From positions 1 to 27,808 of the IMG/VR virus record IMGVR_UViG_3300006750_001966: DNA of 27,808 nt, one strand, 5' to 3'. Positions within the stretch are counted from its first letter, which is position 1. The number at the start of each line of letters is the position of its first letter. The notes under the pieces were generated by a model, which was given only the letters and a program-made list of their open reading frames with translations, was not told where the DNA came from and made no database searches. The DNA comes from a virus. This document shows positions 5,275 to 25,477 of this stretch, piece after piece. The translations under genes were made by a program, and so were the position numbers.

Positions 5275-5282
5275 AATAACGC

Positions 5283-5311
5283 TTGACAAATGACCCAAAA
5301 TGTTGTATATT
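5283..5311 (+). promoter_or_regulatory. Promoter P1, housekeeping-sigma type, with conserved spacer
   Basis: TTGACA (5283-5288), a 17-base spacer AATGACCCAAAATGTTG, and TATATT (5306-5311). The -35 box is a perfect sigma-70 consensus. The spacer shares CC and AAATGT with three other promoters in this window (9346, 18687, 25449), so this is a repeated phage promoter module, not a chance match. The expected transcription start is at or next to the ATG at 5318, seven bases past the -10 box. Confidence 0.88.
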
Positions 5312-5317
5312 ATATGT

Positions 5318-5599
5318 ATGGTTGAAAAGAAAGAAAAAGTTTCTGATCCGATACAAGAAGTATTTGAAGAAGTTCAGAACTTCAAGAAAAGAGGGATCGC
5401 CACGATCCTGTTAACTATTCCACAAATCGAAGAGATATTGGACGCTGCTGGCTATTCTGCCACAGACCCTATAATGATAGACTATCTTGCAAGGTCCGCG
5501 CATGAAGCGGAGAATAAGGGGTCTAATCTCCGTATGAAAACCCAAGAAAATCTTGATAAAAATAAGAAGAAACTTCTTAAAAAGGGTAAACAAGTATGA
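5318..5599 (+). CDS. Hypothetical protein, first gene after promoter P1
   Basis: About 93 residues if started at the ATG at 5318 (MVEKKEKVSD); an in-frame ATG at 5300 lies inside the promoter spacer and is very unlikely to be transcribed. The protein is helical and charged with a lysine-rich tail (NKKKLLKKGK). No family is recognised. Because the start codon is about seven bases after the -10 box, the mRNA would be leaderless or nearly so, which is unusual. Its position directly after a strong promoter suggests early expression, a common setting for host-takeover proteins (inference). Confidence 0.68.
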   Translation: MVEKKEKVSDPIQEVFEEVQNFKKRGIATILLTIPQIEEILDAAGYSATDPIMIDYLARSAHEAENKGSNLRMKTQENLDKNKKKLLKKGKQV

Positions 5600-5674
5600 G
5601 TTGAAAGATATTTATATTGTGGTTTAAAGTCACATGATTAATGGTTATATTAGATACAATTAGGAGAACAAAAG

Positions 5675-5860
5675 ATGACATTGCCGTCACGAACACGACG
5701 ACGTAAAAGTAGTGATCAAGTATTAAACGATAAGGAAGGCCGCCGAAGAAGCGGTTCAAAGAAGTCAAATCGTAATTCAAATAAGGCTAATATTCGTCAA
5801 CTAGATTATGACAATATCAACGGTCTTGAAGTCGATGACGACTTATATGACATGGACTAA
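5675..5860 (+). CDS. Small basic/acidic hypothetical protein
   Basis: 61 residues: a strongly basic N-terminal half (TRRRKSSDQ, GRRRSGSKKSNR) and an acidic tail (DYDNINGLEVDDDLYDMD). The composition suggests a disordered nucleic acid-contacting protein; no family is recognised. The start is well set by an AGGAG Shine-Dalgarno about eight bases upstream. The 75 bases before it hold no gene. The end overlaps the next gene in another frame. Confidence 0.62.
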   Translation: MTLPSRTRRRKSSDQVLNDKEGRRRSGSKKSNRNSNKANIRQLDYDNINGLEVDDDLYDMD

Positions 5861-6296
5861 AGTCGCGAAGCCAAAAAATATTGTATGTGAATATCCACTC
5901 CGACATGGATGGGCAAAATTCTATACAGTAGACGATGATTTAGAAGATGTAACTCATAAACAATTAGTAACTAATTCGTTAGAGAAGATTTCACCATACA
6001 CACAATTTCGTATATCAGAACATGGATATCTTTCAGCCTTTGATGAAGAAAAAAGATTCCCACAACTCTTGACAGAGTATAGTGGTGATGTTATATTCTA
6101 TGTCGAAGGTAGTGAATATCTCACTTTTATAGCGAAGGTTAAGAATGGAAAAGTGTTAGGAATTTTTCACTTCCCAACACTCAATCATTGGGAGATAGAT
6201 TTAAGTGAAACGCCGGATTTTGACATCGAAGCGCTTGATAATAATGACATTAGGAGCGATCCTGGCGATACTGTTATCGAAGGTAATAACCAATAG
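5847..6296 (+). CDS. Hypothetical protein
   Basis: About 149 residues from the ATG at 5847; ATGs at 5835 and 5808 are also in frame but enlarge the overlap with the preceding gene, and none has a clear Shine-Dalgarno, so the start is uncertain. The sequence is mixed alpha/beta, soluble, with an acidic C-terminal tail (IEALDNNDIRSDPGD). No motif or family was recognised. It lies two genes before the single-strand DNA-binding protein and could be a replication accessory protein, but nothing in the sequence shows this. Confidence 0.65.
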   Translation: MTWTKVAKPKNIVCEYPLRHGWAKFYTVDDDLEDVTHKQLVTNSLEKISPYTQFRISEHGYLSAFDEEKRFPQLLTEYSGDVIFYVEGSEYLTFIAKVKNGKVLGIFHFPTLNHWEIDLSETPDFDIEALDNNDIRSDPGDTVIEGNNQ

Positions 6297-6375
6297 GAGA
6301 GAAAGAAGTCTCATTTTAGAAAAAGTCGATGACCTATTAGGGGCAGAGGCTTCGGTTTATACAAACAACTCATAG
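6244..6375 (+). CDS. Possible 43-residue membrane protein overlapping the upstream gene
   Basis: An ATG at 6244 opens a 43-codon frame that runs through the end of the preceding gene (53-base overlap) and fills most of the otherwise empty gap before the gp32-like gene, ending 9 bases before its start. The N-terminus GAILAILLSKVI is hydrophobic enough for one membrane helix, followed by a basic NRRER and an amphipathic helix (LILEKVDDLLG). Against it: no clear ribosome site. Its stop (TAG) sits at the Shine-Dalgarno of the next gene, which would allow translational coupling. Confidence 0.4.
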   Translation: MTLGAILAILLSKVITNRRERSLILEKVDDLLGAEASVYTNNS

Positions 6376-6384
6376 GAGAGTAGA

Positions 6385-7230
6385 ATGGCTATTAATTTAG
6401 ACAAAATCAATGCAGCATTGGATCGTCTTGATCCAGAAAAGAAAAGTCAAAGTAACAACAACAACGATGATACTGTTAAGTTGCCTGAAGGTCAGACCAC
6501 AATTAGACTCGTGCCATATAAACATGACCTTGAAATGCCGTTTCGGGAATTTCATTTCCATTATAGTGTTGCTGGTAAGACGTTTCTGTGTCCCAACCGT
6601 ATGAAACAGGAACCTTGTGAGATTTGTGAACTTGCTACGGGTATGTGGCGTAAGTATGAATCATCACAGGATGAAACGTATAAGGATGCCTTTAAGAAGC
6701 TGGTCGCTACGCTACGTGTGTTCATTCCTATCGTAGTACGTGGGGAAGAAGATAAGGGTGTTCGCTGGTGGGGTGTGAATCCACGGTCTACGTATAAGGA
6801 GATTCTTACAGCCATTAAAAATGCCGCACAGCAAGGTATTGATATTCTCGATCCAGAGTCTGGTAGAGATTTGGTTATCACTGTTGAAAAGGGTTGGAAT
6901 GATTATTTGATTCCCAAATCTGTTCAGCCAGCATTTGCTGATTCCAAGTTGGCAAAGACAAAGAAGGCCATTGAAGATCTTCTTGAAACAGTCTCAAATA
7001 TTGATGAGAAGTATACGTATCGTACTACTGAAGAAATGTCAGCTGCTTTGAGTGGATTCTTCGCAACTAGTGACGTTAAGGAAGGTACTGAAACTGGTAC
7101 CCAAAAGAATTATTCCAAGAACGGTTCAAAAGAACTTGACGAAGAAGATTTGATTGACTTCGGCGGCAAGAATGAATCCTCAGTAGAGGAAAGTGTATCT
7201 GATAAGTTTGATAAAGTCGTCAATAACTGA
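6385..7230 (+). CDS. 32: T4 gp32-like single-stranded DNA-binding protein
   Basis: 281 residues (T4 gp32 has 301). A zinc-binding cluster His57/His59-Cys69-Cys78-Cys81 (CPNRMKQEPCEIC) has nearly the spacing of the T4 gp32 His-Cys3 zinc subdomain. The N-terminus is a short helical arm suited to cooperative self-binding, and the C-terminus is acidic and flexible (ELDEEDLIDFGG), as in gp32, where the tail contacts polymerase, helicase loader and recombinase. It coats single-stranded DNA in replication and recombination. Start: ATG with AGGAGAG seven bases upstream. Its stop overlaps the recombinase start by one base (TGATG), so the two partners are probably made in a fixed ratio. Confidence 0.9.
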   Translation: MAINLDKINAALDRLDPEKKSQSNNNNDDTVKLPEGQTTIRLVPYKHDLEMPFREFHFHYSVAGKTFLCPNRMKQEPCEICELATGMWRKYESSQDETYKDAFKKLVATLRVFIPIVVRGEEDKGVRWWGVNPRSTYKEILTAIKNAAQQGIDILDPESGRDLVITVEKGWNDYLIPKSVQPAFADSKLAKTKKAIEDLLETVSNIDEKYTYRTTEEMSAALSGFFATSDVKEGTETGTQKNYSKNGSKELDEEDLIDFGGKNESSVEESVSDKFDKVVNN

Positions 7231-8387
7231 TGGCAAAGAAAAAGGTCGTTAGCAAAGCAACGGTTGATTATGATGGAGAAGGGAGTGTCTTAAATGACAT
7301 TTCCCTTCCCCACCAACAATTAGTAGACGAGCTAAATAAAACTCTTGGTGATGTAGCCACGATCATCGGAGTTGGTGAGTCCCCAGCCGAAGTAAAAGAA
7401 TGGCTCTCCACTGGTAGTACTGTTTTGGATATGGTTATCTGTAATAAGACAGATGTTGCTGGTGGTATTCCTGTTGGTAAGTTGGTAGAGATTAGTGGCG
7501 AGGCCGCAACTGGTAAGTCTCTTATTTCGTATATGATTTTGAGAGATTGTTTAGAACGTGGTGGTATTCCTGTATTGATTGATACGGAAAGTTCATGCAA
7601 TTTTGATTTCCTAAGAATGCTTGGTTTGGAACCGGATAAGAATTTGATATACATCCAACCAGATAGTATTGAAGATGTTTTCAAAACAATTGAAACAGTA
7701 ATCAAAAATATCCGTGAACAAAACAAGGATCAATTATGTTGTATCGTTTGGGATAGTATTGCTGCTACGTCAGCAGATATCGAACTACAGAAGGATACTG
7801 GCGATTCTCTAGTTGGTGTTCACGCTCGTTTGATTGGACAGGGATTGAGAAAGGTAATCAGATTGATTGCCAGACAACGTATCTCATTGGTGTTTTTGAA
7901 TCAGTTGAGAACCAAGATCGGTGTAGTATTTGGTGACCCTGACACAACGCCAGGTGGACGAGCTGTCCCGTTTATGGCATCTGTTAGACTTAAGTTGTAT
8001 AGTGCTGGTAAGGTGAAGGCTGGTGAAGATGTAATCGGTGTTGGCATCAAAGCCAAGGTGGCAAAGAATAGAATGGGCCCACCTCATCGCGAAGCAATCT
8101 TGCAGGTATACTTTACTAGAGGTTTGATTGATGAAGAGAGTTGGTTACCTATTCTTTTAGCACATGGTGTTGCCGTTAAAAAGACTGCCCAGTTATCAAC
8201 TATAGAATACGATGGCAAGACACATCAGTTTAAAAATACAAAGTTTGCGACCTATCTTGGTGAACATGAAGAATTAAGAATATATTTACAGAGTAAGGTC
8301 AAAGAAGTTTTGTATGTTGAACCAGACCCACATCGTAGAACAGAAAAAATCGTGTTGGAAGAATTAGCTCCCGGCGAAGACATATAA
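7230..8387 (+). CDS. uvsX: UvsX/RecA-like recombinase
   Basis: 385 residues, matching T4 UvsX (about 390). Walker A GEAATGKS at residues 90-97; Walker B region LCCIVWDSIAAT; then SLVFLNQLRTKIGVVFGDPD and TPGGRAVPFMASVRLKL, the RecA/UvsX L2-like and core strand segments. The C-terminal part after about residue 290 is divergent. It forms filaments on single-stranded DNA, carries out strand exchange and would drive recombination-dependent replication with the gp32-like protein encoded immediately upstream. An N-terminal segment of about 55 residues precedes the core. Confidence 0.92.
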   Translation: MAKKKVVSKATVDYDGEGSVLNDISLPHQQLVDELNKTLGDVATIIGVGESPAEVKEWLSTGSTVLDMVICNKTDVAGGIPVGKLVEISGEAATGKSLISYMILRDCLERGGIPVLIDTESSCNFDFLRMLGLEPDKNLIYIQPDSIEDVFKTIETVIKNIREQNKDQLCCIVWDSIAATSADIELQKDTGDSLVGVHARLIGQGLRKVIRLIARQRISLVFLNQLRTKIGVVFGDPDTTPGGRAVPFMASVRLKLYSAGKVKAGEDVIGVGIKAKVAKNRMGPPHREAILQVYFTRGLIDEESWLPILLAHGVAVKKTAQLSTIEYDGKTHQFKNTKFATYLGEHEELRIYLQSKVKEVLYVEPDPHRRTEKIVLEELAPGEDI

Positions 8388-8402
8388 CAAAAGGAAATAA
8401 TT

Positions 8403-8588
8403 ATGGGACTTAAAGCGAAGTTGAAATCAGCATTTTTAAGAGATAAGATCGACACATCAACCTTTGTGGTAAGTGTTGGTTTGTTAGTTGCAGGGACTCA
8501 AGGCTGCATTGATATTACTCAGTGGTTTGCTGGTTTTCTTGTATTAAGTATCGTTGGTTTCTTTGGACGTAATTTTAGAGATCAATAA
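8403..8588 (+). CDS. Small membrane protein
   Basis: 61 residues. A short basic N-terminus (MGLKAKLKSAFLRDK) is followed by hydrophobic stretches FVVSVGLLVAG and FAGFLVLSIVGFF, giving one long or two short membrane helices, and a charged tail (GRNFRDQ). The start is set by AAGGA upstream. No family is recognised; small phage inner-membrane proteins of this sort can affect lysis timing or superinfection, but there is no direct support here. It is the last gene before the structured region at 8592-8762. Confidence 0.7.
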   Translation: MGLKAKLKSAFLRDKIDTSTFVVSVGLLVAGTQGCIDITQWFAGFLVLSIVGFFGRNFRDQ

Positions 8589-8591
8589 TAA

Positions 8592-8762
8592 ATCTGGTGT
8601 AGTCCTTTGGTCGCATTAGGACGAGGGAAGCGTATCGGATACGACAATGTTGTCATTCTCACTGACGGGACAATGGCAACACCTTCCAGCTGAAGGCTAA
8701 TTGATTACGGCCGACAAACCGCGTCAGGGACCGGTAACGTAGATTAGTAACAGCTCATTGAA
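8592..8762 (+). ncRNA. Candidate structured RNA or structured 5' leader
   Basis: A 171-base gap with no convincing gene, about 49% G+C (84 of 170 bases from 8591), clearly richer than its AT-rich surroundings. It contains several hairpins: GTCCT/AGGAC (8602-8606 with 8618-8622), CGTAT/ATACG (8631-8643), TGTTGTCATT with AATGGCAACA (8648-8657 with 8672-8681, ten pairs including one wobble), and CCTTC/GAAGG (8682-8686 with 8692-8696). GACAA occurs twice (8643-8647 and 8669-8673), each able to pair with TTGTC at 8650-8654, so alternative folds are possible. It could be a stable RNA or a leader controlling the HTH/HAD genes. I do not recognise a known RNA family. Confidence 0.45.
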
Positions 8763-8942
8763 ATGGAAGGAAGTCAGCGACATTCGATTGTGGAGCGCTT
8801 GAAGGGAATTATTACTGATATTGTAGATGATGATTTAGTAGTTATGAGAAAACAAGGTAAAAGTTGGAGAGAGATAGGACGTATCACAAATATTCCATTC
8901 ACGACAGTGAGAAGAAGAGTTAATGAAAAGATTTGTATTTGA
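8763..8942 (+). CDS. Small helix-turn-helix protein overlapping the HAD gene
   Basis: A 59-residue frame. Its C-terminal half reads GKSWREIGRITNIPFTTVR, a good helix-turn-helix (helix, tight turn, recognition helix) of the resolvase/sigma-like type. The first 28 residues are helical and acidic. It overlaps the start of the HAD gene by 20 bases in another frame. No strong Shine-Dalgarno precedes the ATG at 8763; an internal ATG at 8842 would give a minimal HTH peptide. A very similar mini-HTH frame lies before the polymerase gene at 18727, which raises confidence that both are real. It may be a DNA-binding regulator. Confidence 0.5.
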   Translation: MEGSQRHSIVERLKGIITDIVDDDLVVMRKQGKSWREIGRITNIPFTTVRRRVNEKICI

Positions 8943-9255
8943 CCTTGATGGGACTTTGGTGAAAACAATGGGTAATGATTACAGAAGCTCAGTACCAATT
9001 TGGAAAGCTATTGCTAAGGTGAATGCTCTTTTCGATGCTGGTCATTGGATTATTATTGATACTGCCCGTGGTGGTACTTCCGGTATTAATTGGAAAGAGT
9101 TTACTGCCAAACAATTAGAAGAGTTTGGAATACAGTATCACGAATTGATCGTTGGTTCTAAACTATCCGCTGATTACTTTATTGACGATAAAGGTATCAA
9201 CGTTCAAGATTGGTTGGAAAACGAAGAAGAAGCATTAGCAAAAGTAGTTACGTAA
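8923..9255 (+). CDS. Small HAD-superfamily phosphatase
   Basis: 110 residues, a minimal HAD fold without a large cap domain. Motif I is FDLDGT (Asp7 nucleophile, Asp9 acid/base), motif II is the Thr in IIDTARGG, and motif III/IV is a Lys near residue 80 followed by YFIDDKG (acidic pair binding magnesium). It would dephosphorylate a small molecule, possibly a sugar phosphate or nucleotide, or a nucleic acid end. A link to the missing heptose-bisphosphate phosphatase step of the left block is conceivable but not shown. The start at 8923 lies inside the preceding HTH frame. Confidence 0.82.
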   Translation: MKRFVFDLDGTLVKTMGNDYRSSVPIWKAIAKVNALFDAGHWIIIDTARGGTSGINWKEFTAKQLEEFGIQYHELIVGSKLSADYFIDDKGINVQDWLENEEEALAKVVT

Positions 9256-9260
9256 CGACA

Positions 9261-9334
9261 GCGGATGAAACTTATTTGGTAAAGCACTTGATTTTCAATC
9301 AAGATTCTTATGGGTTCGATTCCTATTATCCACT
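9261..9334 (+). tRNA. tRNA-Glu-like gene, anticodon TTC
   Basis: A cloverleaf can be drawn. The anticodon arm is CTTGA-TTTTCAA-TCAAG (9287-9303) with anticodon TTC. The T arm is ATGGG-TTCGATT-CCTAT (9310-9326). The D loop ATTTGGTA has the conserved GG and sits on CTT/AAG. The acceptor is GCGGATG with TATCCAC (9261-9267 with 9327-9333). Irregularities: a C-A mismatch in the acceptor, an A-C at the first D-stem pair, A in place of the near-universal T8, a six-base variable loop, and no encoded CCA. So it may be a degenerate or unusual tRNA. The downstream promoter starts 12 bases later. Confidence 0.55.
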
Positions 9335-9345
9335 CTATTTAATGC

Positions 9346-9374
9346 TTGACAAACCCCCTTAAATGTGGTATATT
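9346..9374 (+). promoter_or_regulatory. Promoter P2, same family as P1
   Basis: TTGACA (9346-9351), spacer AACCCCCTTAAATGTGG (17 bases), TATATT (9369-9374). It shares the upstream GC, the CC and AAATGT spacer positions and the downstream ATA with the other three copies. The expected start of transcription coincides with the ATG at 9381. Confidence 0.88.
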
Positions 9375-9380
9375 ATATAT

Positions 9381-9479
9381 ATGAAACAACACAACTCTGA
9401 CCACTACAAGATGATACTTATCGGCACGATTTTGTTTTATATGTGCCTTGCCATAGGTGTCAACCTAATCATTCAGTGA
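9381..9479 (+). CDS. 32-residue membrane peptide directly after promoter P2
   Basis: A 32-codon frame beginning seven bases after the -10 box, so the mRNA would be leaderless. It has a polar N-terminus (MKQHNSDHYK) and one hydrophobic helix (MILIGTILFYMCLAIGVNLI). It ends inside the Shine-Dalgarno area of the next gene (TGAGGAAG), consistent with coupling. No family is recognised. The membrane-like composition and the tight fit between promoter and next gene support a real gene, but it is very short. Confidence 0.5.
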   Translation: MKQHNSDHYKMILIGTILFYMCLAIGVNLIIQ

Positions 9480-9486
9480 GGAAGTA

Positions 9487-9978
9487 ATGCCCCGCGAAAA
9501 GGTTTCAACTCGTAAGAAAACAACACCCCGCAAGAAAGCTGCACCCCGCATTAAAACTCAAGAAACTTTTGAGGAACAGGTAAAGGGAGAATTACAATCT
9601 ACTTCTGGTACACCTGTAGCATCTAGACTTAAAAGGAAGAACAAGAAAGACACTTCTCTTCTTGATGATCCACCTAAAAAAATCAAACCGAAGAAGAAGG
9701 AACCGGCACTACCACGGCCCGAACATTTCTCAAGAGTTTCAGAACTAGATGAAATCAAGTTTGATGAAAAGAAGTTTGTTCTACGGGAATTGTCAAAGAC
9801 ATTGAAGAAGGGTGGCAATGGTGCTTACATTGCTTCGATCTTATATCGTAACATGATTGACTATCTCAAACGTGAACATTTCTATTTGGGTAATGTAGAA
9901 GGTGCTGATAAGACCAAGATCAAGCAAGCACTACAAAAAGATCTAGCTTATGTTAAGACATTGTTGAGGTCTGTCTAA
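9487..9978 (+). CDS. Basic-tailed hypothetical protein
   Basis: 163 residues. The first 80 are low-complexity and very basic with TRKK, TPRKK and KKIKPKKKEP repeats interrupted by a short acidic stretch; the last 80 form a compact helical region (FVLRELSKTLKKGGNGAYIA to VKTLLRSV). The tail is histone-like and probably binds DNA or RNA; no family is recognised. The start is fixed by AGGAAG just upstream. Its stop overlaps the next start by one base. Confidence 0.68.
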   Translation: MPREKVSTRKKTTPRKKAAPRIKTQETFEEQVKGELQSTSGTPVASRLKRKNKKDTSLLDDPPKKIKPKKKEPALPRPEHFSRVSELDEIKFDEKKFVLRELSKTLKKGGNGAYIASILYRNMIDYLKREHFYLGNVEGADKTKIKQALQKDLAYVKTLLRSV

Positions 9979-10265
9979 TGGAATATGATTTAGAATCTAA
10001 TCTTAATCCTGAGTTTACTGATGCGATGAAAATCAAAATCGAAACGGTAAGAGGGTGTATTGAAGTTATTGAGAGTGAATGTAAAATAAAGTTACAGGCA
10101 TTAGAATTAATGAAAGAAGATAGCGATGTAAGAGAGTTGACATTGATACATTATAAAGATGCTATTGAGGCATATTCAAAATCATTGACCACTCTTCTAC
10201 AGAAAGTAATTGACGATTATTCGGACCCAAAAAATGACGACACTCCGCCGGATTTAACGATTTGA
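9978..10265 (+). CDS. Hypothetical helical protein
   Basis: 95 residues, almost wholly predicted helix with regular hydrophobic spacing (IETVRGCIEVIESECKIKL and following), probably a coiled-coil or four-helix oligomer. The C-terminal tail is acidic and proline-containing (DPKNDDTPPD). No family is recognised. It shares an A with the preceding stop (TAATG), placing it in the same translation unit. The 55 bases after it hold only a weak lead to the next gene. Confidence 0.62.
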   Translation: MEYDLESNLNPEFTDAMKIKIETVRGCIEVIESECKIKLQALELMKEDSDVRELTLIHYKDAIEAYSKSLTTLLQKVIDDYSDPKNDDTPPDLTI

Positions 10266-10320
10266 AATATATATTCCCAACAGTGTTTTTTGGAATTGAT
10301 AGGGTCATATTTAGATTACG

Positions 10321-10923
10321 ATGACAAGAATGACAACCAAGAATTATCTTCATAGAATACTATATTTTTTCTCAAGACAAGCTAAAAACTTCTTAGTATT
10401 GTGTCTTGTTATGTTGTGTTTACATCTGTATCATAAAGACATTGTTAGCAAAAGAAGTTGGGGTAATTGCACTAAATCGGCTAGTGGAATGTTTTATGAA
10501 CTTGTTATGGAAATGAATACTACAACAATTTTGAGATTAGAGGTTGAGCGACTTAAGAAACGGTTAGAACTATTAACAGCGACAAGAGTCAAGGTCACGA
10601 TGTATCACCCTGTTTCTAAACAGACCGACAGCACACCAAACATTACAGCTGACGGCACGATCATAAAGATAGATCAGGCAAGTTCATATAGGTATGTAGC
10701 AGTCAGTAGAGATTTGTTGAAGTCGAACGGTGGACATTTGAACTACGGTGACTACGTTGTGTTACAAGGGACTGGCAAGAAAGATGGTTTGTATCAAGTG
10801 AGAGACACAATGGCTCCACGATGGACAAATCGAATTGATATATTAGAGTCTCCATCTGTAGCACCATATAAATTTGAGGAAGCAATGTTGGTGTATGTAA
10901 ATGATATAGTAACTGAAAATTAA
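10321..10923 (+). CDS. Membrane-anchored 3D-domain (double-psi barrel) protein
   Basis: 200 residues. Residues about 22-38 (AKNFLVLCLVMLCLHLY) form a membrane helix after a basic N-terminus, a type II signal anchor. A helical stalk (ILRLEVERLKKRLELL) follows. The C-terminal 110 residues fit the 3D domain found in MltA-like lytic transglycosylases and cell-wall proteins: VTMYHP, NITADGT, VAVSRDLL, YGDYVVLQGTGKKDG and WTNRIDI, including the conserved Asp residues. The domain would face the periplasm and could cleave or bind peptidoglycan. That suits lysis or envelope remodelling, although the gene sits among replication genes. The start is either 10321 or 10330; neither has a strong ribosome site. 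Confidence 0.72.
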   Translation: MTRMTTKNYLHRILYFFSRQAKNFLVLCLVMLCLHLYHKDIVSKRSWGNCTKSASGMFYELVMEMNTTTILRLEVERLKKRLELLTATRVKVTMYHPVSKQTDSTPNITADGTIIKIDQASSYRYVAVSRDLLKSNGGHLNYGDYVVLQGTGKKDGLYQVRDTMAPRWTNRIDILESPSVAPYKFEEAMLVYVNDIVTEN

Positions 10924-10938
10924 ATAGGATAAAGGTTT

Positions 10939-14180: not shown

Positions 14181-14977
14181 TGATCTACGAAGTCCAAAAC
14201 AAAGTTAAGTTAGATCTACCACCTGAACACGAAGGTATTATCACAGCATATAATACTGAGTGGGATGATAAGAATGGTCAAGGGTGGGAGATAAAAAACT
14301 TTATCGACTTGACCGAAAATAAAAAGTGTTTGTTTGATGTGGGAGGAAACGTTGGTTTCTTCTCACATGTTTTTGTTAACAACAATGCTGAAGAAACCGA
14401 TAAGATATCTTTTTGTTTTGAGCCGTCACCGTGGGGAACAAATATTTGTTTTGAGATTTTGAATCACAACGGTCAACACGATAGAATCAAAGTGTTTCCT
14501 CATTTTGTTGGTGACACAAATGGTGAAGCAGGTGTTCTTCTAGAAGAGAAGTCTCATACTTTTGTCGTCGAATATGAAAAGGAAATTCCTAACTTTGTCG
14601 TTAGTAAAACTGGTGACCAACAAAAGACAACACTCGTAACCCTTGATGCCTTTTCAGATTTTGTCGATAGAGAAGCTGGTTTAGAATTAGATACAATCAA
14701 AATTGATGTAGAAGGATATGAGTATAAAGTGTTAGTAGGGTCTATCAAAACGATTATGAAATATAGGCCCTTGATTTTTTTGGAGGTTCATAGTTATATG
14801 TTGAATCTGTATAATGCTACAACACTAGATATATATCAACATATGGCCGGATTGAATTATCAAGTGTTTGATATTCATATGAATGAAATAGTAACCGATG
14901 AACAATACTTAGACTTATTTGAAAACATTTTAGAGGCACGATTCGTATGTAGCCCAAGGGAGAAGAAACTTGTCTAA
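14180..14977 (+). CDS. FkbM-family SAM methyltransferase
   Basis: 265 residues. FDVGGNVGFFSHVF is the SAM-binding motif I, FCFEPSPWG is the FkbM strand-2 motif with the acidic residue, VTLDAFSDF and IKIDVEGYEYKVLVG are the diagnostic FkbM core (D-x-E-G-x-E), and PLIFLEVHSY follows. FkbM enzymes O-methylate sugars, glycans and secondary metabolites. Its place inside the nucleotide/replication operon, far from the sugar block at 1-5274, is unexpected; it may still act on the same glycan. Its end overlaps the reductase start by 8 bases. Confidence 0.85.
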   Translation: MIYEVQNKVKLDLPPEHEGIITAYNTEWDDKNGQGWEIKNFIDLTENKKCLFDVGGNVGFFSHVFVNNNAEETDKISFCFEPSPWGTNICFEILNHNGQHDRIKVFPHFVGDTNGEAGVLLEEKSHTFVVEYEKEIPNFVVSKTGDQQKTTLVTLDAFSDFVDREAGLELDTIKIDVEGYEYKVLVGSIKTIMKYRPLIFLEVHSYMLNLYNATTLDIYQHMAGLNYQVFDIHMNEIVTDEQYLDLFENILEARFVCSPREKKLV

Positions 14978-17261: not shown

Positions 17262-17272
17262 AGAGGAATCCT

Positions 17273-18033: not shown

Positions 18034-18047
18034 CTTGAGGAAAATCA

Positions 18048-18263
18048 ATGGGCGTTAAAATAAAAAGAGTATGTGACAGATGCTTGATAGAAGAAAAAGA
18101 AGAATTTTTTATTAACAGAGAAGATATCAAAGGTGCAAGGAAATGCATTGAAATCGGATACATGGTTGATTGGTTGTGTCTCATCTGCAAGAAGAACAAA
18201 AAATTGTTGGGAGAATCTGTAGACCCAACGATAGAAGGCGAAACAGAAAATGGAGTGGAGTGA
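18048..18263 (+). CDS. Small zinc-ribbon protein
   Basis: 71 residues with two CxxC pairs, Cys9/Cys12 (RVCDRCLIEE) and Cys44/Cys47 (WLCLICKKN), forming a probable zinc ribbon. The tail is acidic. No function can be assigned. Start: ATG with GAGGAAA upstream. It overlaps the dCMP deaminase gene by 14 bases. This is the third small zinc-ribbon gene in the window (others at 3181 and 13546). Confidence 0.72.
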   Translation: MGVKIKRVCDRCLIEEKEEFFINREDIKGARKCIEIGYMVDWLCLICKKNKKLLGESVDPTIEGETENGVE

Positions 18264-18690
18264 TTACTTCATACGTATAGCAAATCAAGTAAAGTTTAAA
18301 TCAAAAGATAGAAACACTCAGATAGGTGTGGTGTTGGTAGGTGAAGATAATGAGATTGTTTCTACCGGTTATAATTCCTTCCCTAGAGGTATAATAGATG
18401 GTATACCAGAAAGACAAAAAAGACCTGAGAAATATTATTGGTTCGCTCACGCTGAACTTAACAGCATCGTCAATGCCGCACGTATTGGTGTATCCACAAA
18501 AAACACAGTAATGTATATGACCTGTAGTATTCCGTGTTGTGATTGTGCTCAAGCAATCATAAATGCTGGTATCAAGAAGGTGATTTGCAATTCAGTTTCT
18601 TCCACTAAAGGAGATCAGTGGGAAGAGAAAATGAAACGTAGCATTCAAATGTTTGAAGAAGCAGGAGTGGAAGTAGTATATTATGCTTGA
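18250..18690 (+). CDS. cd: dCMP (deoxycytidylate) deaminase
   Basis: 146 residues. The zinc-binding and catalytic motif HAE is at residues 67-69 and the PCxxC motif (PCCDC, Cys96/Cys99) follows at the correct distance; early segments DRNTQIGVVLV and STGYNSFPRG match the dCMP deaminase family. It converts dCMP to dUMP, feeding thymidylate synthesis; no thymidylate synthase is seen in the window. With the ribonucleotide reductase it makes a precursor-supply pair. The next promoter starts inside its last codon region (TTGACA at 18687 overlaps the TGA stop). Confidence 0.9.
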   Translation: MEWSDYFIRIANQVKFKSKDRNTQIGVVLVGEDNEIVSTGYNSFPRGIIDGIPERQKRPEKYYWFAHAELNSIVNAARIGVSTKNTVMYMTCSIPCCDCAQAIINAGIKKVICNSVSSTKGDQWEEKMKRSIQMFEEAGVEVVYYA

Positions 18691-18715
18691 CAAACACCCC
18701 AAAATGTCGTATATT
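18687..18715 (+). promoter_or_regulatory. Promoter P3 before the polymerase gene
   Basis: TTGACA (18687-18692), spacer AACACCCCAAAATGTCG (17 bases), TATATT (18710-18715). The -35 box overlaps the stop codon of the dCMP deaminase gene (TGA within TTGACA). It shares the CC and AAATGT spacer elements with P1, P2 and P4, and gives the polymerase gene its own transcription start. Confidence 0.88.
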
Positions 18716-18726
18716 ATATAGAAGGA

Positions 18727-18804
18727 ATGTCACTCCGATCAATTGCAAAACATTTTAAGGTAGCTAGAAACACAATAACAGGTAGGTTGAAAAAATATGT
18801 ATGA
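18727..18804 (+). CDS. 25-residue helix-turn-helix mini-ORF overlapping the polymerase gene
   Basis: The frame from ATG 18727 encodes 25 residues containing SLRSIAKHFKVARNTITGRL, a near-ideal helix-turn-helix with Ala at the helix-2 position and a recognition helix of RNTITGRL type. It begins 12 bases after the -10 box, with AAGGA almost touching the ATG, and its TGA overlaps the first codons of the polymerase gene by 8 bases, so translation could be coupled. It closely resembles the C-terminal half of the 59-residue frame at 8763. It could be a truncated relic of a larger DNA-binding protein or a real micro-regulator. Confidence 0.45.
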   Translation: MSLRSIAKHFKVARNTITGRLKKYV

Positions 18805-21800
18805 TTACAGTAAGCCAGTGACAACTTTTACGCACACGCATTGTCATTCGTCATATAGTTTACTAGATGGAATCGGCAAGCCATCTCAGAACGCTAAGAG
18901 AGCTGCTGAAATTGGAATGCAAAGTTTAGCAATTTCAGACCACGGGACATGTGCTGGTCATTATGAGTTTCAGACTGCTTGCGACAAGTATGGTATTAAA
19001 CCAATACTCGGTGCAGAGTTTTATTTCGTTGAGGATAGACACGTCAAATCTCTCACCGACGAAGAAAAAGAGGGAATGACGAAGGAAGAACGTCTTGCCG
19101 AAACGAGAAAGAGGCAAGCAAATCCACATCTAATTTTGCTTGCTGAAAATGATACCGGCTTAAAAAATATTTATCACCTTAATTATCTTGCCGCTAAAGA
19201 AGGTTTCTATGGCAAGCCACGTATTGATCTAGAATTGCTTCGTAAGTATAACGAAGGCATCATTGCCACAACTACGTGTATCATTTCTCCGTGGGCTAAG
19301 TATTATTTCCGTGGTGAAATAGATAAGATGAAAAGTTTGTTTGAAGAAATGTATGATATCTTTGGTAAGGATAGATTCTTCATCGAACTACATCCACACG
19401 AAAAGTTTTCGTATCGCGCTAGCGATAACTCAGACCAACACGCTCAACGTGAATATAATTTCACCATGATTGAGTTGTTCAGGAAACAGTATGACATTCG
19501 TTGCACATTAGCTAACGATGCTCACTACCCTGAGAAGAAACACTCTGGTGTCCACAAATTTATGTTTGCGGTCAATACAAACGGTAAGTATGATGAAACG
19601 TCTTGTAACAATCTCTACATTGCTTCTGAAGAAGATATGAGGGGGTTCTGGCACGACAACGGACATAGTGCTGATATACCGGACGAATACCTAGACGAAG
19701 CGATTGAGACTACCAAAGAGATCGCCTCACGGTGTAATGCCAGAATTGATGTTGACTCTCTGAAGGAACCACAGTTTGAAGTCCCACAGGGATATCTGTC
19801 GAACAAAGAGTATATCCATAAGTTGTTGAAGGATGGTTTGACTGAAAAGATTGATACTGGTCAAATCATTATGGATGATGTTGATATCTATATTGACCGT
19901 ATCAATACAGAGTTGTCTCTGATAGCTGACAAGGGATACGTTGACTACTTCCTTTTGACTAGAGACTTCTGTAACTGGGCGTATGAAGAAAAGATTCTTC
20001 AATCCCCCGGTAGAGGTAGTGCTGCGGGTAGTTTGATTTGTTGGTTGTTAGGAATCACTAGGGTTAATCCTATCAAGTATGATCTATTCTTTGAGAGGTT
20101 TATGAATCCTGAGCGTATCAAGGAACCAGATATTGATAATGACTTTCAGGACAGCGAACGTCAACGTGTGAAGGATTACATTGCTGACCGCTGGGGTAGC
20201 TCAAATATTGCGTCGTGTGCTGCCTATAGTCGATACACAGCAAACACATTGTTTAGAGAAGTGTGTAAACAGTTTGGTGTGGAGTTTTCTCAAGTGAATA
20301 AGATTGCTAAGACAATTAGTGGTCACACATCTTTGAACAAAGACGTTGCATCATTCACAGACATTATGGATAAGAACTCTGACATTAAAGAATTTGTTCA
20401 AGCATTACCAGAGGATGAAGCCAAAGAGTTTGTAAACATTATCGACACCATCATTGGTAATGTTAGGAATGTTACAATCGCAGGTGGAGGTACGATTATT
20501 AGTAGTCAACCTCTACATGAAATGATGCCCCTTCGAGCAAGCAAAGATGAAGGTATCATTACAGAGTGGCAAGTAGATGAGTTAACCAAGATGAAGTTTC
20601 TCAAGATTGATATCTTGGGTATCTCTACGTTGTCGATTATCAAACAGATTATGGATCAAGTAGATATGACGGTCGATGATTTGTATGATATGCCAGTCGA
20701 TAGAGAAGAGTTATCGGAAGATGAACAGGTACACTACGACAGAGCATACGAATTGCTCCAACAAGGTGAGACTCAAGGAATCTTTCAGTTTGGTGGTAGT
20801 AACATTACTAGATGTCTACAGAAGATGATTCCAACAACCTTGGAACACATCGCTGCTGTAAATGCTATCTATCGTCCCGGTGTTATCAAGTCGGGTGCTA
20901 TGGAAGCATTCCTTCGTCGTAGAAACGGTGAAGAGAAAAGTGTGAATGACTACCATCCTATCTTCGATGAGATTTTAGCATCTACTGAAAACATTATGAT
21001 TTATCAAGAGCAATTCATTCAAATGTTTAACAAGTTGGGAATGGATTTTGGTAAGTCAGACATTCTTCGTCGTATCGCTGAGACAGGTGATAAAGATGCT
21101 TGCTACAAGTATCTTGATGACAATCTGTATTGTAATCCTGACGACATGGCTTTGACCGAAAAGCAAACACACGATATTGCCAGTAAGGTAATCGAAGCTG
21201 CTGGTTATCTATTCAACAAGTCTCATGCTATTTCATATTCGTTGTTGGCTTATTGGACTGCCTATATGAAAGCTAAGTATCCTGACAAGTTTATTGAAGT
21301 GATGTTCAATCACCATCATGGTGACCATGACAATCAAGCTATCAATTTGAATATGGCTAAGAAACTATTGGATGAGCCTGAAGTTTCGATAGGGGATATC
21401 AATACGTTCACGAAAGATTATAAGGTGGATGGGAACACTATCAACATTGGTGTGAAGAGCATCAACGGTGTTGGCAACTCTGTGATCAAACGAATCGAAA
21501 CCAATAGACCCACAGGCGGTTGGATAACATTCAGTGAGTTCCATGAGGATAATCATTACAAGAAAATAATCTCATACAAGAACTTACAGATCCTTGTTAA
21601 GCTAGGAATGTTTGATTCAATGTTGATCAATGGTAGTGGAGTTAAGTTGTCAAGAAAAGCATTGTGTGATGTTGTAGAAGTACTTGGTAAACTATCTACG
21701 TTGACGAAAAAGAAACTCAATACTTTCCTTGATACATTGTATGATGGTAAGGTTACTGATAAGAATGTTATAGATGTGCTCAATGCTGAACATCTTACAC

Positions 21801-22249
21801 TCTTGTTAGACGAGTTTGGAATCAACGATGATGAGTTTGAAGAAGATGAACTGCTCGGTTTTGAGATTGATTACTTAGGATTCCGATTGAATGAAGATGT
21901 AGAGAAGAATAACATGCTCAAGAAAATGACTGATGAAATGGGCATCACTCACATTAGTGATTTGGATGAAGAGGGTGGGACTGTTGGTCACCATTGGACA
22001 ATCATTCGGTCAATAGAAAAACTGAAAACCAAGAATGGGAAACCATATGCCAACGTTAGAACAGACGATGGCAGTAGTTTTAGAGTGTGGTGGAACAAAC
22101 TTCAGTATATAGACAACTACCTTGTGCCAGGGAAATTGGTAGTGGTACAACTGAATTCAGATACCTTTGGCAGATCATTAGCTCATGGTAGAATGAGTTT
22201 TATGAATGAGAAAGAAATCATAAAGCTTTACGATCAAGTGAGTGAGTGA
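18797..22249 (+). CDS. dnaE: DNA polymerase III alpha subunit-like polymerase (C family)
   Basis: 1150 residues, almost the length of bacterial DnaE (1160). An N-terminal PHP domain (FTHTHCHSSYSLLDG, AISDHGT, GAEFYF, ANDAHYPEKKHSGVH) appears to keep its metal-binding His and acidic residues, so proofreading by PHP is possible. The palm has PGRGSAAGSL (about 426-435) and the catalytic acids Asp445 and Asp447 (PDIDNDFQ) with Asp605 in KIDILG. QGIFQFGG, YRPGVI and LFNKSHAISYSLLAYWTAY are further DnaE signatures. A C-terminal OB-fold region (GHHWTIIRSIEKLKTKNG) follows. This is the likely phage replicase, in place of the T4-type family B enzyme. Confidence 0.95.
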   Translation: MYDYSKPVTTFTHTHCHSSYSLLDGIGKPSQNAKRAAEIGMQSLAISDHGTCAGHYEFQTACDKYGIKPILGAEFYFVEDRHVKSLTDEEKEGMTKEERLAETRKRQANPHLILLAENDTGLKNIYHLNYLAAKEGFYGKPRIDLELLRKYNEGIIATTTCIISPWAKYYFRGEIDKMKSLFEEMYDIFGKDRFFIELHPHEKFSYRASDNSDQHAQREYNFTMIELFRKQYDIRCTLANDAHYPEKKHSGVHKFMFAVNTNGKYDETSCNNLYIASEEDMRGFWHDNGHSADIPDEYLDEAIETTKEIASRCNARIDVDSLKEPQFEVPQGYLSNKEYIHKLLKDGLTEKIDTGQIIMDDVDIYIDRINTELSLIADKGYVDYFLLTRDFCNWAYEEKILQSPGRGSAAGSLICWLLGITRVNPIKYDLFFERFMNPERIKEPDIDNDFQDSERQRVKDYIADRWGSSNIASCAAYSRYTANTLFREVCKQFGVEFSQVNKIAKTISGHTSLNKDVASFTDIMDKNSDIKEFVQALPEDEAKEFVNIIDTIIGNVRNVTIAGGGTIISSQPLHEMMPLRASKDEGIITEWQVDELTKMKFLKIDILGISTLSIIKQIMDQVDMTVDDLYDMPVDREELSEDEQVHYDRAYELLQQGETQGIFQFGGSNITRCLQKMIPTTLEHIAAVNAIYRPGVIKSGAMEAFLRRRNGEEKSVNDYHPIFDEILASTENIMIYQEQFIQMFNKLGMDFGKSDILRRIAETGDKDACYKYLDDNLYCNPDDMALTEKQTHDIASKVIEAAGYLFNKSHAISYSLLAYWTAYMKAKYPDKFIEVMFNHHHGDHDNQAINLNMAKKLLDEPEVSIGDINTFTKDYKVDGNTINIGVKSINGVGNSVIKRIETNRPTGGWITFSEFHEDNHYKKIISYKNLQILVKLGMFDSMLINGSGVKLSRKALCDVVEVLGKLSTLTKKKLNTFLDTLYDGKVTDKNVIDVLNAEHLTLLLDEFGINDDEFEEDELLGFEIDYLGFRLNEDVEKNNMLKKMTDEMGITHISDLDEEGGTVGHHWTIIRSIEKLKTKNGKPYANVRTDDGSSFRVWWNKLQYIDNYLVPGKLVVVQLNSDTFGRSLAHGRMSFMNEKEIIKLYDQVSE

Positions 22250-22257
22250 TATTTATT

Positions 22258-22473
22258 ATGATCGTTGCTAAAGTTTATGACTATATTCAAAGACAACATT
22301 TGTATTTAAGAAATGTTGAACGTATAGGTGATTACTATATAGAAGGTGGATTCTGTTTCTTTTTATTAGATGGTGTGGAGTACTGTACATCTGTTGAACG
22401 TAGTAATATGAGAAGAATATTTGAACTTGCCCCACAGGCCAAACAGAATTTACAATTGGAAGAGAACGTATGA
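22258..22473 (+). CDS. Small hypothetical protein
   Basis: About 71 residues from ATG 22258; a GTG at 22246 overlapping the polymerase stop is also in frame, and neither has a good ribosome site. The sequence is mixed alpha/beta (AKVYDYIQRQHLYLRNVE, GGFCFFLLDGVEYC). No family is recognised. It ends in an ATGA overlap with the next gene and lies in the polymerase operon. Confidence 0.6.
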   Translation: MIVAKVYDYIQRQHLYLRNVERIGDYYIEGGFCFFLLDGVEYCTSVERSNMRRIFELAPQAKQNLQLEENV

Positions 22474-23060
22474 GCGAATTACAACGTGATAATAATAAAA
22501 TATCTAGGGAAGATATTATCAAAAGTCCCGGTACGATCTCTGCCAAAATTGTATACAACACTATGTATGACAATGATTTTGAATTGTATTACATAGGTGG
22601 AGTGATGGGCAATGTGTTATATACAGTTCAATTGAACAACAAGGAAAAAGCTCTTGTAGCTTTTACCACAGCTGAATTGTTGCAGAGTTATATTAACAGA
22701 GATCAGATGAAACCAAAGATTAGAAAGTCGTTTGGTAACAAATTGGCTTGTGTTAAGATTGGTATAGATGTGGTGAACAAACTTATAAAACAAACTGCAA
22801 TGAAGGCTGCTCATGGGATAATTCCCGAATTACCGGGGCCGCCACTAGATACAGTAATTATTAATCCAAACATGAAGGACAAGTTTATACCTATTAGTAT
22901 TTCATACACAACATCTTTGTTGACTACTGTGCAGGATGAAGATGACCCATTAGAATTTGGGACATTGAGAATTAGTATGGAAGATGTGGACATTTTGGAG
23001 TACGATAAAGAAGATAAAGTATATTTATTTATAGAGGAAGATGGAGATATGATAGGCTAG
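22470..23060 (+). CDS. Hypothetical protein
   Basis: 196 residues, mixed alpha/beta, with no recognised motif. The C-terminal 50 residues are rich in Asp and Glu and alternate strands (LGFG-like turns absent; DILEYDKEDKVYLFIEEDG). A Shine-Dalgarno GGAAGAG precedes the ATG, and the start overlaps the preceding stop. Its TAG stop lies inside the left arm of a 13-base-pair inverted repeat (23051-23063), so mRNA structure begins within the coding end. Confidence 0.65.
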   Translation: MSELQRDNNKISREDIIKSPGTISAKIVYNTMYDNDFELYYIGGVMGNVLYTVQLNNKEKALVAFTTAELLQSYINRDQMKPKIRKSFGNKLACVKIGIDVVNKLIKQTAMKAAHGIIPELPGPPLDTVIINPNMKDKFIPISISYTTSLLTTVQDEDDPLEFGTLRISMEDVDILEYDKEDKVYLFIEEDGDMIG

Positions 23061-23140
23061 TTATTTATAATGAGGGTTGGTGATTCTCCCGAATAGGTTT
23101 TAGTCCAACAACATTCTTTATTATATTTAACTAGCCTGTC
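23051..23140 (+). other. Long inverted repeat forming a stem-loop between genes
   Basis: GATAGGCTAGTTA (23051-23063) can pair with TAACTAGCCTGTC (23128-23140): 13 base pairs, one of them a T-G wobble. They enclose 64 bases, which contain a smaller GTTGG/CCAAC pairing (23076-23080 with 23105-23109). The structure spans almost the entire 103-base gap between genes and includes the upstream stop codon. There is no T-run after it, so it is not a simple terminator; it could be an RNase processing site, an mRNA stability element or a stable small RNA. Confidence 0.55.
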
Positions 23141-23163
23141 ATACCTCTTACGAAAGGTTACAT

Positions 23164-23541
23164 ATGACAAACGATACACAAGAAATACCTGAAGAGTTGC
23201 AAGAGATATTAGACATTGAAGATGATATTTTAGAAGTTAGAATGATCTTTATTCAACAACAATTGAAGGATCATTCGATTGGTTTAAGACGAAAGTTAGA
23301 CGCAACCAAACCAACGAAAGAGTTAATTGAAGAAGAAGATTTTAAGAAGTGGTATATTGCCGCTGAAGTTTTGAAACAATCTTATGCTAACAGCGATACG
23401 TTTAATCGGCTATTGTATTATATGTTTGAACAGTGTCATAAAAATTTAGAAACATTGTTATCCTTCTATGACTTAGAATTTGAGAAGGATGAAGTTAGTG
23501 GAGAGATTAAGAGTGTAACGCTGGTAATGCTGGAGGAATGA
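23164..23541 (+). CDS. Hypothetical helical protein
   Basis: 125 residues, largely helical and acidic (EIPEELQEILDIEDDILE at the start; LYYMFEQCHKNLETLLSF near the end). No family is recognised. Start: ATG 23164 with AAAGG upstream. It is the first gene after the stem-loop region and is followed by two more helical proteins, perhaps parts of one complex (inference from order only). Confidence 0.65.
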   Translation: MTNDTQEIPEELQEILDIEDDILEVRMIFIQQQLKDHSIGLRRKLDATKPTKELIEEEDFKKWYIAAEVLKQSYANSDTFNRLLYYMFEQCHKNLETLLSFYDLEFEKDEVSGEIKSVTLVMLEE

Positions 23542-23543
23542 TG

Positions 23544-23963
23544 ATGAAAGATGACGACCTACATTCAATTCAGTCTGTATTGTCTGTGCTGGGCGAAGTA
23601 CACCTGTTGGAAACATATTTTGAGGGATTTGATAAGACATTATCTATCCTGCTGGCCGGCGAGGATGTGACTCAGATAACCGATGCCACAAAAATATTTA
23701 ATCTACATAGTGATGTAGAGTGTGTTAAGAGTGATATACATAGTATTACGAAGAAGTTGTTGATTATAGCTTCTGAATTAAGTGCTATGAAAATAGATGA
23801 AACAAGGAAAGAGACACAACCCACCGCAAGTATCAAGATCAAAAAAATGAACCCACAACCAGAACCTGACCCTGAACAACCAAGAAATGTTTGGTTACAA
23901 AACGCATCTGAATACATATCTAAGAAGTATGAAAACATCGAAACCGACGACGACGGAGAATGA
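23544..23963 (+). CDS. Hypothetical protein
   Basis: 139 residues if started at the third of three consecutive ATGs (23538, 23541, 23544); only 23544 is properly spaced (7 bases) from GGAGG at 23532-23536. The first 85 residues are helical (VLGEVHLLETYFEGFDKTL), followed by a linker rich in Pro and Glu (NPQPEPDPEQPRN) and a short C-terminal helix. No family is recognised. It overlaps the next gene by four bases. Confidence 0.62.
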   Translation: MKDDDLHSIQSVLSVLGEVHLLETYFEGFDKTLSILLAGEDVTQITDATKIFNLHSDVECVKSDIHSITKKLLIIASELSAMKIDETRKETQPTASIKIKKMNPQPEPDPEQPRNVWLQNASEYISKKYENIETDDDGE

Positions 23964-24244
23964 TCTTGAGCGCTATTGTAACCCCTCAACAGATACAAAA
24001 TGCCCTTGATGCGGAACCCGCTGAGATTTTGAGAGCGGTTCATAAGAGAATCGTAGACACAGAAAAGTTGATGACAGAATATAGAAACTTTGCGATGAAC
24101 CAACAAACAGATATTGAAATGCTACAAGAACGAGTTACAGAGTTGATAGAAGATATGAAAAACATAAAAGAAAAACTATTGCCGTTAGAGGTCAAACACG
24201 ATCTTCAATTGGAAATGTTTGATTTAAGTACGGAACAAGTATGA
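23960..24244 (+). CDS. Hypothetical coiled-coil protein
   Basis: 94 residues or slightly fewer: ATG at 23960 lies only 2 bases from GGAGA, while an in-frame TTG at 23966 is better spaced and gives MSAIVTPQQ. The chain from about residue 20 to 85 is a continuous heptad-like helix (TEKLMTEYRNFAMNQQ, MLQERVTELIEDMKNIKEKL), so a coiled coil is likely. No family is recognised. Confidence 0.62.
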   Translation: MILSAIVTPQQIQNALDAEPAEILRAVHKRIVDTEKLMTEYRNFAMNQQTDIEMLQERVTELIEDMKNIKEKLLPLEVKHDLQLEMFDLSTEQV

Positions 24245-24263
24245 TGCCAACGGTGATTAAAAT

Positions 24264-24749
24264 GTGAATAGGAAGAAACGGCTTGTCACTAAAGACAAGG
24301 TAAGACGACTGAAGAAAAAGTTGTCTGATGCAAAACCTGTTAAGCCAAGAATATCTCGTAAGAATAGAAAACGAACTTGGTGTGAACAAGCTGTACAAGA
24401 CCTATTAGAAGATATGGGTATTTCTTTTGACATTGAAATCCCATTACCGTTCAAGCTCAGTTGGAAACATTACGACATAGGACTTGAGGAATATCCTATC
24501 CTCATAGAAGTAGACGGTGATTACTGGCACGGTAACAAGAAAGTAATGACTGAAGAACAAAAGATTAACTGGATGCAAATGAAGAACAAGCAAAACGATC
24601 TGCTGAAAGATTGGGTTGCAAAGAACAAAGGTTACAAACTCATTCGTATATGGGAAAGTGATATCAAAGACGATCTGCCGGCAGTTAGGGCAAAGATTCG
24701 TAAAACGATTAGAGAAGTGAAGAGTTTAAAAGAAGGTGAAGAAGTATAA
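24264..24749 (+). CDS. Vsr/PD-(D/E)XK-like endonuclease
   Basis: 161 residues from a GTG at 24264; a stop codon just upstream rules out a longer form. A basic N-terminal region (about 1-38) precedes the core: EQAVQDLLEDMGISFD (N-terminal helix with Glu), HYDIGLEEYPILIEVDGDYW (Asp and Glu of the restriction-like active site, IEVDG), a Lys/Asn-rich helix (NKQNDLLKDWVAKNKGY) and LIRIWESDI. That order is typical of very-short-patch-repair-like and group I homing endonucleases of this fold. It would nick or cut DNA. Which role applies (repair, homing, host DNA breakdown) is not decided by the sequence. Confidence 0.75.
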   Translation: MNRKKRLVTKDKVRRLKKKLSDAKPVKPRISRKNRKRTWCEQAVQDLLEDMGISFDIEIPLPFKLSWKHYDIGLEEYPILIEVDGDYWHGNKKVMTEEQKINWMQMKNKQNDLLKDWVAKNKGYKLIRIWESDIKDDLPAVRAKIRKTIREVKSLKEGEEV

Positions 24750-24781
24750 AGGCATCTGCCACAGTATAGAAAGAAGGAAGT

Positions 24782-24964
24782 ATGGCACGAGCAGAACGAT
24801 TACCAGTACCAGGCGGTGAAGTAGAAAGAGATATAGGGTTTTATACATTCCGTGAAGGAGAGAAGGGATTCCCTTTGAATATTAAAGCTGGTGTAGCTTT
24901 ATGGGAAATGGCTGAAACAATTCAACGTCTGAAAAAAGAATTAGAAAATACTGAGAATCATTAA
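24782..24964 (+). CDS. Small hypothetical protein
   Basis: 60 residues. The N-terminal half contains LPVPGGEVERDIGFYTFREG, the C-terminal half a helix (GVALWEMAETIQRLKKELEN). No family is recognised. Start: ATG with GAAGGAAG immediately upstream, a strong ribosome site. It is followed by a 62-base gap containing a stem-loop. Confidence 0.62.
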   Translation: MARAERLPVPGGEVERDIGFYTFREGEKGFPLNIKAGVALWEMAETIQRLKKELENTENH

Positions 24965-24971
24965 GACTATT

Positions 24972-25005
24972 TATAGAGAGGGTGACATTAGTTGCTCTCT
25001 CTATA
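24972..25005 (+). repeat. Inverted repeat (9-base-pair stem) between genes
   Basis: TATAGAGAG (24972-24980) and CTCTCTATA (24997-25005) are perfect complements around a 16-base loop. The stem is AT/GA-rich and has no following T-run, so it does not look like a Rho-independent terminator. It lies 8 bases after one stop codon and about 20 before the next start; mRNA processing or stability is a possible role. Confidence 0.45.
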
Positions 25006-25026
25006 TCTCTTTAATGGAGTTATCAT

Positions 25027-25341
25027 ATGAGCAAAACCAAAAAGAATCGTGGACGTAAGTTTAAGAATAAGAATGTCAAAAATTTAATCAAATTCTTGAA
25101 ACGTATGAACAAAAGAGAAGATGCCCTTATAGAACATGTCCGCGACTTAGAGTTTTATATGGCAACACTAGAAGAAGTTTTCTTTGAGGATTCAGAATCC
25201 GATGGTGATCTCATGGTTGGTTCAGGAATGGTAGAAGAAATAGAAGAGGAAATACCACCACTTTTTACTATGGATCAGGTATTGGAAGAACTAAAGACCC
25301 CGAAGAAAAAGAAGAAGAAGAAGAAAAATGAAGAAAGGTGA
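25027..25341 (+). CDS. Hypothetical protein with poly-lysine tail
   Basis: 104 residues: a basic N-terminus (MSKTKKNRGRKFKNKNVK), a central helical stretch (REDALIEHVRDLEFYMATLE), an acidic region (SDGDLM, VEEIEEEIPP) and a C-terminal run of lysines (TPKKKKKKKKNEER). The lysine run is encoded by a pure-purine GAA/AAG repeat, a possible slippage site. No family is recognised. Start: ATG with GGAG upstream. Confidence 0.62.
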   Translation: MSKTKKNRGRKFKNKNVKNLIKFLKRMNKREDALIEHVRDLEFYMATLEEVFFEDSESDGDLMVGSGMVEEIEEEIPPLFTMDQVLEELKTPKKKKKKKKNEER

Positions 25342-25420
25342 TTTTGTTTTAACGAATTTTTGGTTGGTAACACGGATTCGTAAGATTGATAAGAAAACCA
25401 AACTGCTTCAAGGAAGGTAA
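25328..25420 (+). CDS. Possible 30-residue protein
   Basis: A 30-codon frame (MKKGDFVLTNFWLVTRIRK and a basic end) that starts 14 bases before the preceding stop codon, in another frame, and fills most of the gap before promoter P4. GA-rich sequence before the ATG could serve as a ribosome site but is not specific. It resembles the first strands of a small SH3-like protein and may be a truncated gene. Weak support. Confidence 0.3.
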   Translation: MKKGDFVLTNFWLVTRIRKIDKKTKLLQGR

Positions 25421-25448
25421 AAAAACCTCAAAAAATCGACGAAATAGC

Positions 25449-25477
25449 TTGACATTTCTCCTAAAATGTGTTATATT
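25449..25477 (+). promoter_or_regulatory. Promoter P4 before the DNA methyltransferase gene
   Basis: TTGACA (25449-25454), spacer TTTCTCCTAAAATGTGT (17 bases), TATATT (25472-25477). It shares upstream GC, spacer CC and AAATGT with P1-P3. Seven bases after the -10 box there is an ATG (25484) that is closed after two codons (ATG ATT TAA); the real gene starts at 25505 with TGGAGA upstream. Confidence 0.88.

Follow-up and report, generated by a model that had tools for sequence, protein, structure and literature searches.

The window analysed here is an entire IMG/VR virus record of 27,808 bases with a GC content of 38%. A DNA search of phage records gave no near match to it. The virus is probably a marine phage, judged from related contigs and gene content rather than from a statement in any record. 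The coding share is 95%, and the assigned genes all lie on the + strand. Sugar genes (glycosyltransferases, an epimerase, a GHMP kinase and a SIS-domain gene) are followed by those of replication and recombination, comprising ssb, a uvsX-like recombinase, an exonuclease, DnaB helicase, ribonucleotide reductase and DNA polymerase III alpha. The epimerase, kinase and SIS-domain genes are consecutive and appear to form a phage-borne nucleotide-sugar pathway of the heptose type. A DNA-methyltransferase-like protein of 589 amino acids has a weak Pfam match that falls below the cut-off. One inter-ORF gap of 174 bases gave no match in Rfam and has moderate structure (z -1.8).

Four sites on the + strand, with -35 boxes beginning at 5283, 9346, 18687 and 25449, share the pattern GC-TTGACA-N5-CC-N2-AAATGT-N2-TATATT-ATA. 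The coordinates and all the shared features listed for them in the earlier note are exact in every copy. The -35 box agrees with the sigma70/sigmaA consensus at six of six positions and the -10 box (TATATT) at five of six, and the spacer is 17 bases long in all four. The features are collected in Table 1.

Table 1. Positions of the promoters, their spacer hexamers and other features of the window.
Feature	Position	Strand	Remarks
Promoter 1	5281..5314	+	GC TTGACA aatgaccca AAATGT tg TATATT ATA
Promoter 2	9344..9377	+	GC TTGACA aaccccctt AAATGT gg TATATT ATA
Promoter 3	18685..18718	+	GC TTGACA aacacccca AAATGT cg TATATT ATA
Promoter 4	25447..25480	+	GC TTGACA tttctccta AAATGT gt TATATT ATA
AAATGT of promoter 1	5298..5303	+	-20 to -15
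AAATGT of promoter 2	9361..9366	+	G next, hence TGTG at -17 to -14
AAATGT of promoter 3	18702..18707	+
AAATGT of promoter 4	25464..25469	+	G next, hence TGTG at -17 to -14
Fifth TTGACA-17-TATATT	6069..6097	+	Wholly within orf5808; without GC, without AAATGT
Terminator-like hairpin	24972..25005	+	15-bp stem, T-rich tail, between two ORFs, z -5.1
Hairpin within gene	14337-14368	+	14-bp hairpin, T-rich tail, z -6.0, inside FkbM methyltransferase gene
tRNA gene	9261-9334	+	Rfam 47.5 bits (gathering 29); missed by ARAGORN
25-aa ORF	18727-18804	+	Helix-turn-helix-fragment-like; ribosome-binding site
Second small HTH-like ORF	8763-8942
Epimerase, GHMP kinase and SIS-domain genes	607-3191	+	Consecutive
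Inter-ORF gap	8589-8762	+	174 bases

All four promoters are located at gene boundaries, in gaps or at a stop codon, for which the chance with four random placements is ~1.7e-6. Promoter 1 starts 8 bases past the end of a glycosyltransferase gene, and downstream of it are orf5318, two small ORFs, ssb and uvsX. Promoter 2 is directly 3′ of a tRNA gene and is followed by a 32-aa ORF, orf9487, and the genes for the exonuclease, DnaB helicase and ribonucleotide reductase. Promoter 3 overlaps the last codon of the dCMP deaminase gene, with a 25-aa HTH-like ORF and DNA polymerase III alpha downstream, while promoter 4 precedes the gene of the 589-aa DNA-methyltransferase-like protein. It is plausible from this arrangement that the promoters head separate transcription units, giving a likely operon map. 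The one convincing intergenic terminator-like hairpin in the window could be a boundary of the unit that starts at promoter 3; another hairpin lies within a gene (Table 1).

Some local features accompany the promoters. The tRNA gene ends 11 bases 5′ of the -35 box of promoter 2, and its anticodon loop UUUUCAA suggests tRNA-Glu (UUC). An ATG is found exactly 6 bases past the -10 boxes of promoters 1 and 2, at 5318 (93 aa) and 9381 (32 aa). These start codons are at the expected start of transcription with no room for a ribosome-binding site, so that both are candidate leaderless genes. The 25-aa ORF directly behind promoter 3 (MSLRSIAKHFKVARNTITGRLKKYV) overlaps the start of DNA polymerase III alpha.

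The plain pattern TTGACA-N17-TATATT occurs five times in the window where 0.03 are expected. The fifth occurrence, at 6069, is probably a chance in-gene match. AAATGT combined with both hexamers, allowing up to three mismatches, is found at exactly the four sites (0.08 expected), with no weaker copies elsewhere in the window, and none of 100 shuffles reached the observed counts of core or motif. A generic scan for the hexamers is at the level of chance (41 and 48 found, 42 and 43 expected), so only the near-consensus sites stand out.

The spacer hexamer is widespread. TTGACA-N9-AAATGT-N2-TATATT is present in at least 119 stretches of IMG/VR, compared with 27 when AAATGT is shifted by one base and one when the scrambled hexamer TGTAAA is placed in the same register. 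The pattern, with 20 bases specified, was also found in 53 stretches of bacterial genomes belonging to Bacillota, Chloroflexota, Zixibacteria, Bacteroidota, Pseudomonadota, Patescibacteria and other phyla. Thus AAATGT is enriched in viruses and across many phyla, in register with the -10 box. The Zixibacteria genomes were left out as an unbiased host sample, as many of their matches are repeated elements or apparently due to chance.

A similar preference emerges in promoters chosen blind to the spacer. A viral sample selected for GC-TTGACA-N17-TATATT-ATA alone contains 104 distinct spacers, whose consensus at -20 to -13 is AAATRTGT, with frequencies A.50 A.49 A.61 T.61 A.40/G.27 T.51 G.52 T.41. 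Multiplied together, these site frequencies predict AAATGT in 1.3% and TGTAAA in 0.012% of spacers, a difference of nearly 100-fold that agrees with the scan counts and so accounts for the result with the scrambled hexamer. The profile is similar in 112 promoters of other phages (from 30 virus records and the relatives), where T at -17 has a frequency of.71.

Related phages have promoters with the same core ahead of some of the corresponding genes. In the relatives identified by UvsX (49–58% identity) and in a 27-kb record with much the same gene order (G058; methyltransferase-like protein 66%, polymerase 53% identical), TTGACA-17-TATATT precedes both ssb and polymerase III, and in other relatives it lies shortly before exo. 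These promoters keep the core, and mostly also the GC flank and ATA, but AAATGT is replaced by TAATTG, CAATTG, AAGTTG, TCATTT, TAATTT, AATTTT, AAATTA and other hexamers. T at -17 is retained more often than G at -16 or T at -15. The hexamer therefore drifts at the same genes, unlike a required operator of a conserved regulator. The earlier note had called for a search beyond the four copies; this gave matches in many phages, but none further in the window, and the promoters ahead of ssb and DNA polymerase in syntenic relatives are without AAATGT. Conservation upstream of the methyltransferase-like gene was considered and rejected. Four loci carry the hexamer there (L007, L011, L035 and L119), but these had been found by the motif itself. 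Among 80 homologues found by protein it is present in two distinct promoters only, one of which is from a record near-identical to the window, and most of the 80 have no strong promoter at the gene.

The best explanation, to which we would give a probability of about 75%, is that these are four strong host promoters of the sigma70/sigmaA type, and that AAATGT is the phage's own spelling of a stretch contacted by the polymerase. The main RNA polymerase of the host would read all four, each of them placed ahead of a set of early or replication genes, and the hexamer at -20 to -15 would form part of the recognition surface of the polymerase itself. In the structure of the RNA polymerase holoenzyme the beta-prime zipper and sigma make contacts at -17 to -13 (PMC4593229), and a zipper-binding (‘Z’) element at -17/-18 has been reviewed (PMC5101437). 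AT-tracts of the spacer at -17 to -23 act via R451 of sigma70 (PMC7229825), while TGTG at spacer positions 13–16 increases the affinity of the polymerase (PMC8695583). In the host of this phage the beta-prime zipper and sigma region 3.0 would touch the backbone over the A-rich -20 to -18 and the T at -17, which suit such contacts. All four promoters have TGT at -17 to -15, which may act as an extended -10 element of the TRTG (tandem TG) kind, complete or partial; two of them add G at -14. Together with the near-consensus -35 box, 17-base spacer and -10 box, the spacer element should give tight binding without an activator. One spelling would be fixed in this phage, with its relatives spelling the same element otherwise. 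Given the known contacts at -17 to -13 and the generic enrichment, RNA polymerase is a sufficient reader and an extra regulator is unneeded. The reading of the four as near-consensus sigma70-type promoters, each leading a gene block, stands, and the motif does recur in many other phages. The premise of the earlier note that sigma70 contacts leave the spacer free does not stand, in view of the enrichment in the same register and the holoenzyme structure (PMC4593229).

The window's promoters share features with several known classes. Like extended -10 promoters, all four have T at -17, G (a purine) at -16 and T at -15. Promoters 2 and 4 add G at -14, which 1 and 3 lack, and thereby contain TGTG at spacer positions 13–16, described by Klein et al. 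2021 as the tandem TG element (PMC8695583). A weak -35 box is frequent among extended -10 promoters, whereas here all four boxes are perfect. The ‘Z’ element, where the beta-prime zipper and R451 and H455 of sigma meet the backbone, coincides with the A-rich bases at -20 to -18 and the T at -17. The spacer AT-tract of Warman et al. 2020 (PMC7229825) extends from -23 to -17; here the A/T run is shorter, beginning at about -22 or -20 and ending at -17, with C at -23 in all four promoters and a further C in two.

The early promoters of T4-like phages offer a precedent for a within-genome spelling, since phage-specific early-promoter consensus sequences have been described for them (PMC1524935). 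There too a single phage has many near-identical promoters read by host sigma70, and the consensus shifts between relatives, including a GT-rich stretch 5′ of -12 (PMC1524935). The -35 of T4 early promoters is GTTTAC-like, and theirs is another phage group; that of the window is TTGACA, and the window has no sign of a modified alpha subunit. A middle promoter of the MotA type was considered, as GCTT precedes the spacer and has a likeness to the Mot box GCTTGACA (consensus from PMC1524935). A Mot box lies 11–13 bases from the -10 box and replaces the -35; here GCTTGA is 19 bases from the -10 box, the -35 matches the consensus, and the candidate was rejected.

Three properties sit less comfortably with the generic profile. 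Four identical hexamers have a probability of ~1.5e-7 under it. CC at spacer positions 6–7, a pair chosen post hoc, is found in all four promoters and is absent from the profile, although its frequency elsewhere (2/88 and 5/104) rules it out as a general element. G at -14, the best understood base of the extended -10 element, is present in two of the four only. The finding is largely ordinary, though the profile alone does not account for the uniformity within this genome.

That uniformity could be caused by the host. A refinement compatible with polymerase contact, which we regard as possible rather than probable, is that the uniform spelling follows a preference of the host polymerase through a lineage-specific sigma or beta-prime surface. 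Similarity of spacer positions 10–17 within genomes exceeds that with shuffled labels (z 7.5; 0/2000 shuffles), and is strongest in the window, G035, G033 and G039. This test is exploratory; the records were partly selected for AAATGT, with one copy per record removed. Differences in composition between genomes contribute, as spacer positions 1–9 also give z 4.6, and phages with one AAATGT promoter reuse the hexamer in only 7 of their 93 remaining promoters, four of these in one record. A rather more tentative idea is that phages keep a genome-specific ‘dialect’ at -20 to -13, either read by a phage factor or tuned to the host, forming a private class of sigma70 promoters. In the window the dialect would be AAATGT with its accompanying CC. 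Another genome-specific spacer element is found in the IMG/VR record G034 (locus L061), which has five promoters within 3 kb (111461-114118). In four of the five, GGTGC closes the spacer before the -10 box, and CCAAAGGTGC is common to three of the four.

The earlier note had suggested that AAATGT may be a separate binding site. A phage or host regulator would bind it, perhaps together with CC, and switch the four promoters as one time class. We consider this unlikely. The complete uniformity of both elements in the window, with no weaker copies, would suit such a regulator, as would uniform spacer elements in other phages (AAATGT in five of seven promoters of the 101-kb G035, and AAATATCT-like elements in G039) and the two small HTH-like ORFs of the window. 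However, the hexamer is common in the same register among unrelated phages and bacteria, it is missing from promoters at these genes in relatives, the contact region of the polymerase suffices to explain it, and no regulator is tied to the four sites. Nor is dyad symmetry above chance. Pairing between spacer positions 1–3 and 10–12 shows no excess in the 104 viral promoters (a value as high arises in 843 of 2000 shuffles), and the dyad operator ACATTT-N6-AAATGT fits promoter 4 alone. Literature searches found nothing relevant on AAATGT as a named phage element.

Recent copying of one promoter cassette across the genome, also suggested earlier, is improbable. The 33–34 bp units, identical in core and spacer element, speak for it, but beyond these the copies are no or only slightly more alike than random sequence. 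The flanks are 21–38% identical between copies, where random pairs give 27%, and the first nine spacer bases 33–67%, which largely refutes copying. In relatives, moreover, some of these gene positions are occupied by promoters whose spacers differ, and the sites there are therefore old. Coincidence within AT-rich promoter-like sequence, for which the low GC content and the chance-level generic scan might speak, is refuted by the expected counts, the shuffles and the intergenic placement of all four, and can be given almost no weight.

The four sites provide a clean set of promoters of the host-polymerase type in a virus without a near match in the phage database searched. An A-rich spacer with TRTG is common to strong promoters across viruses, and a shared spacer motif should not be taken for a regulator site without a generic baseline. 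If dialects within genomes are real, they could serve to link phage contigs to one another or to their hosts.
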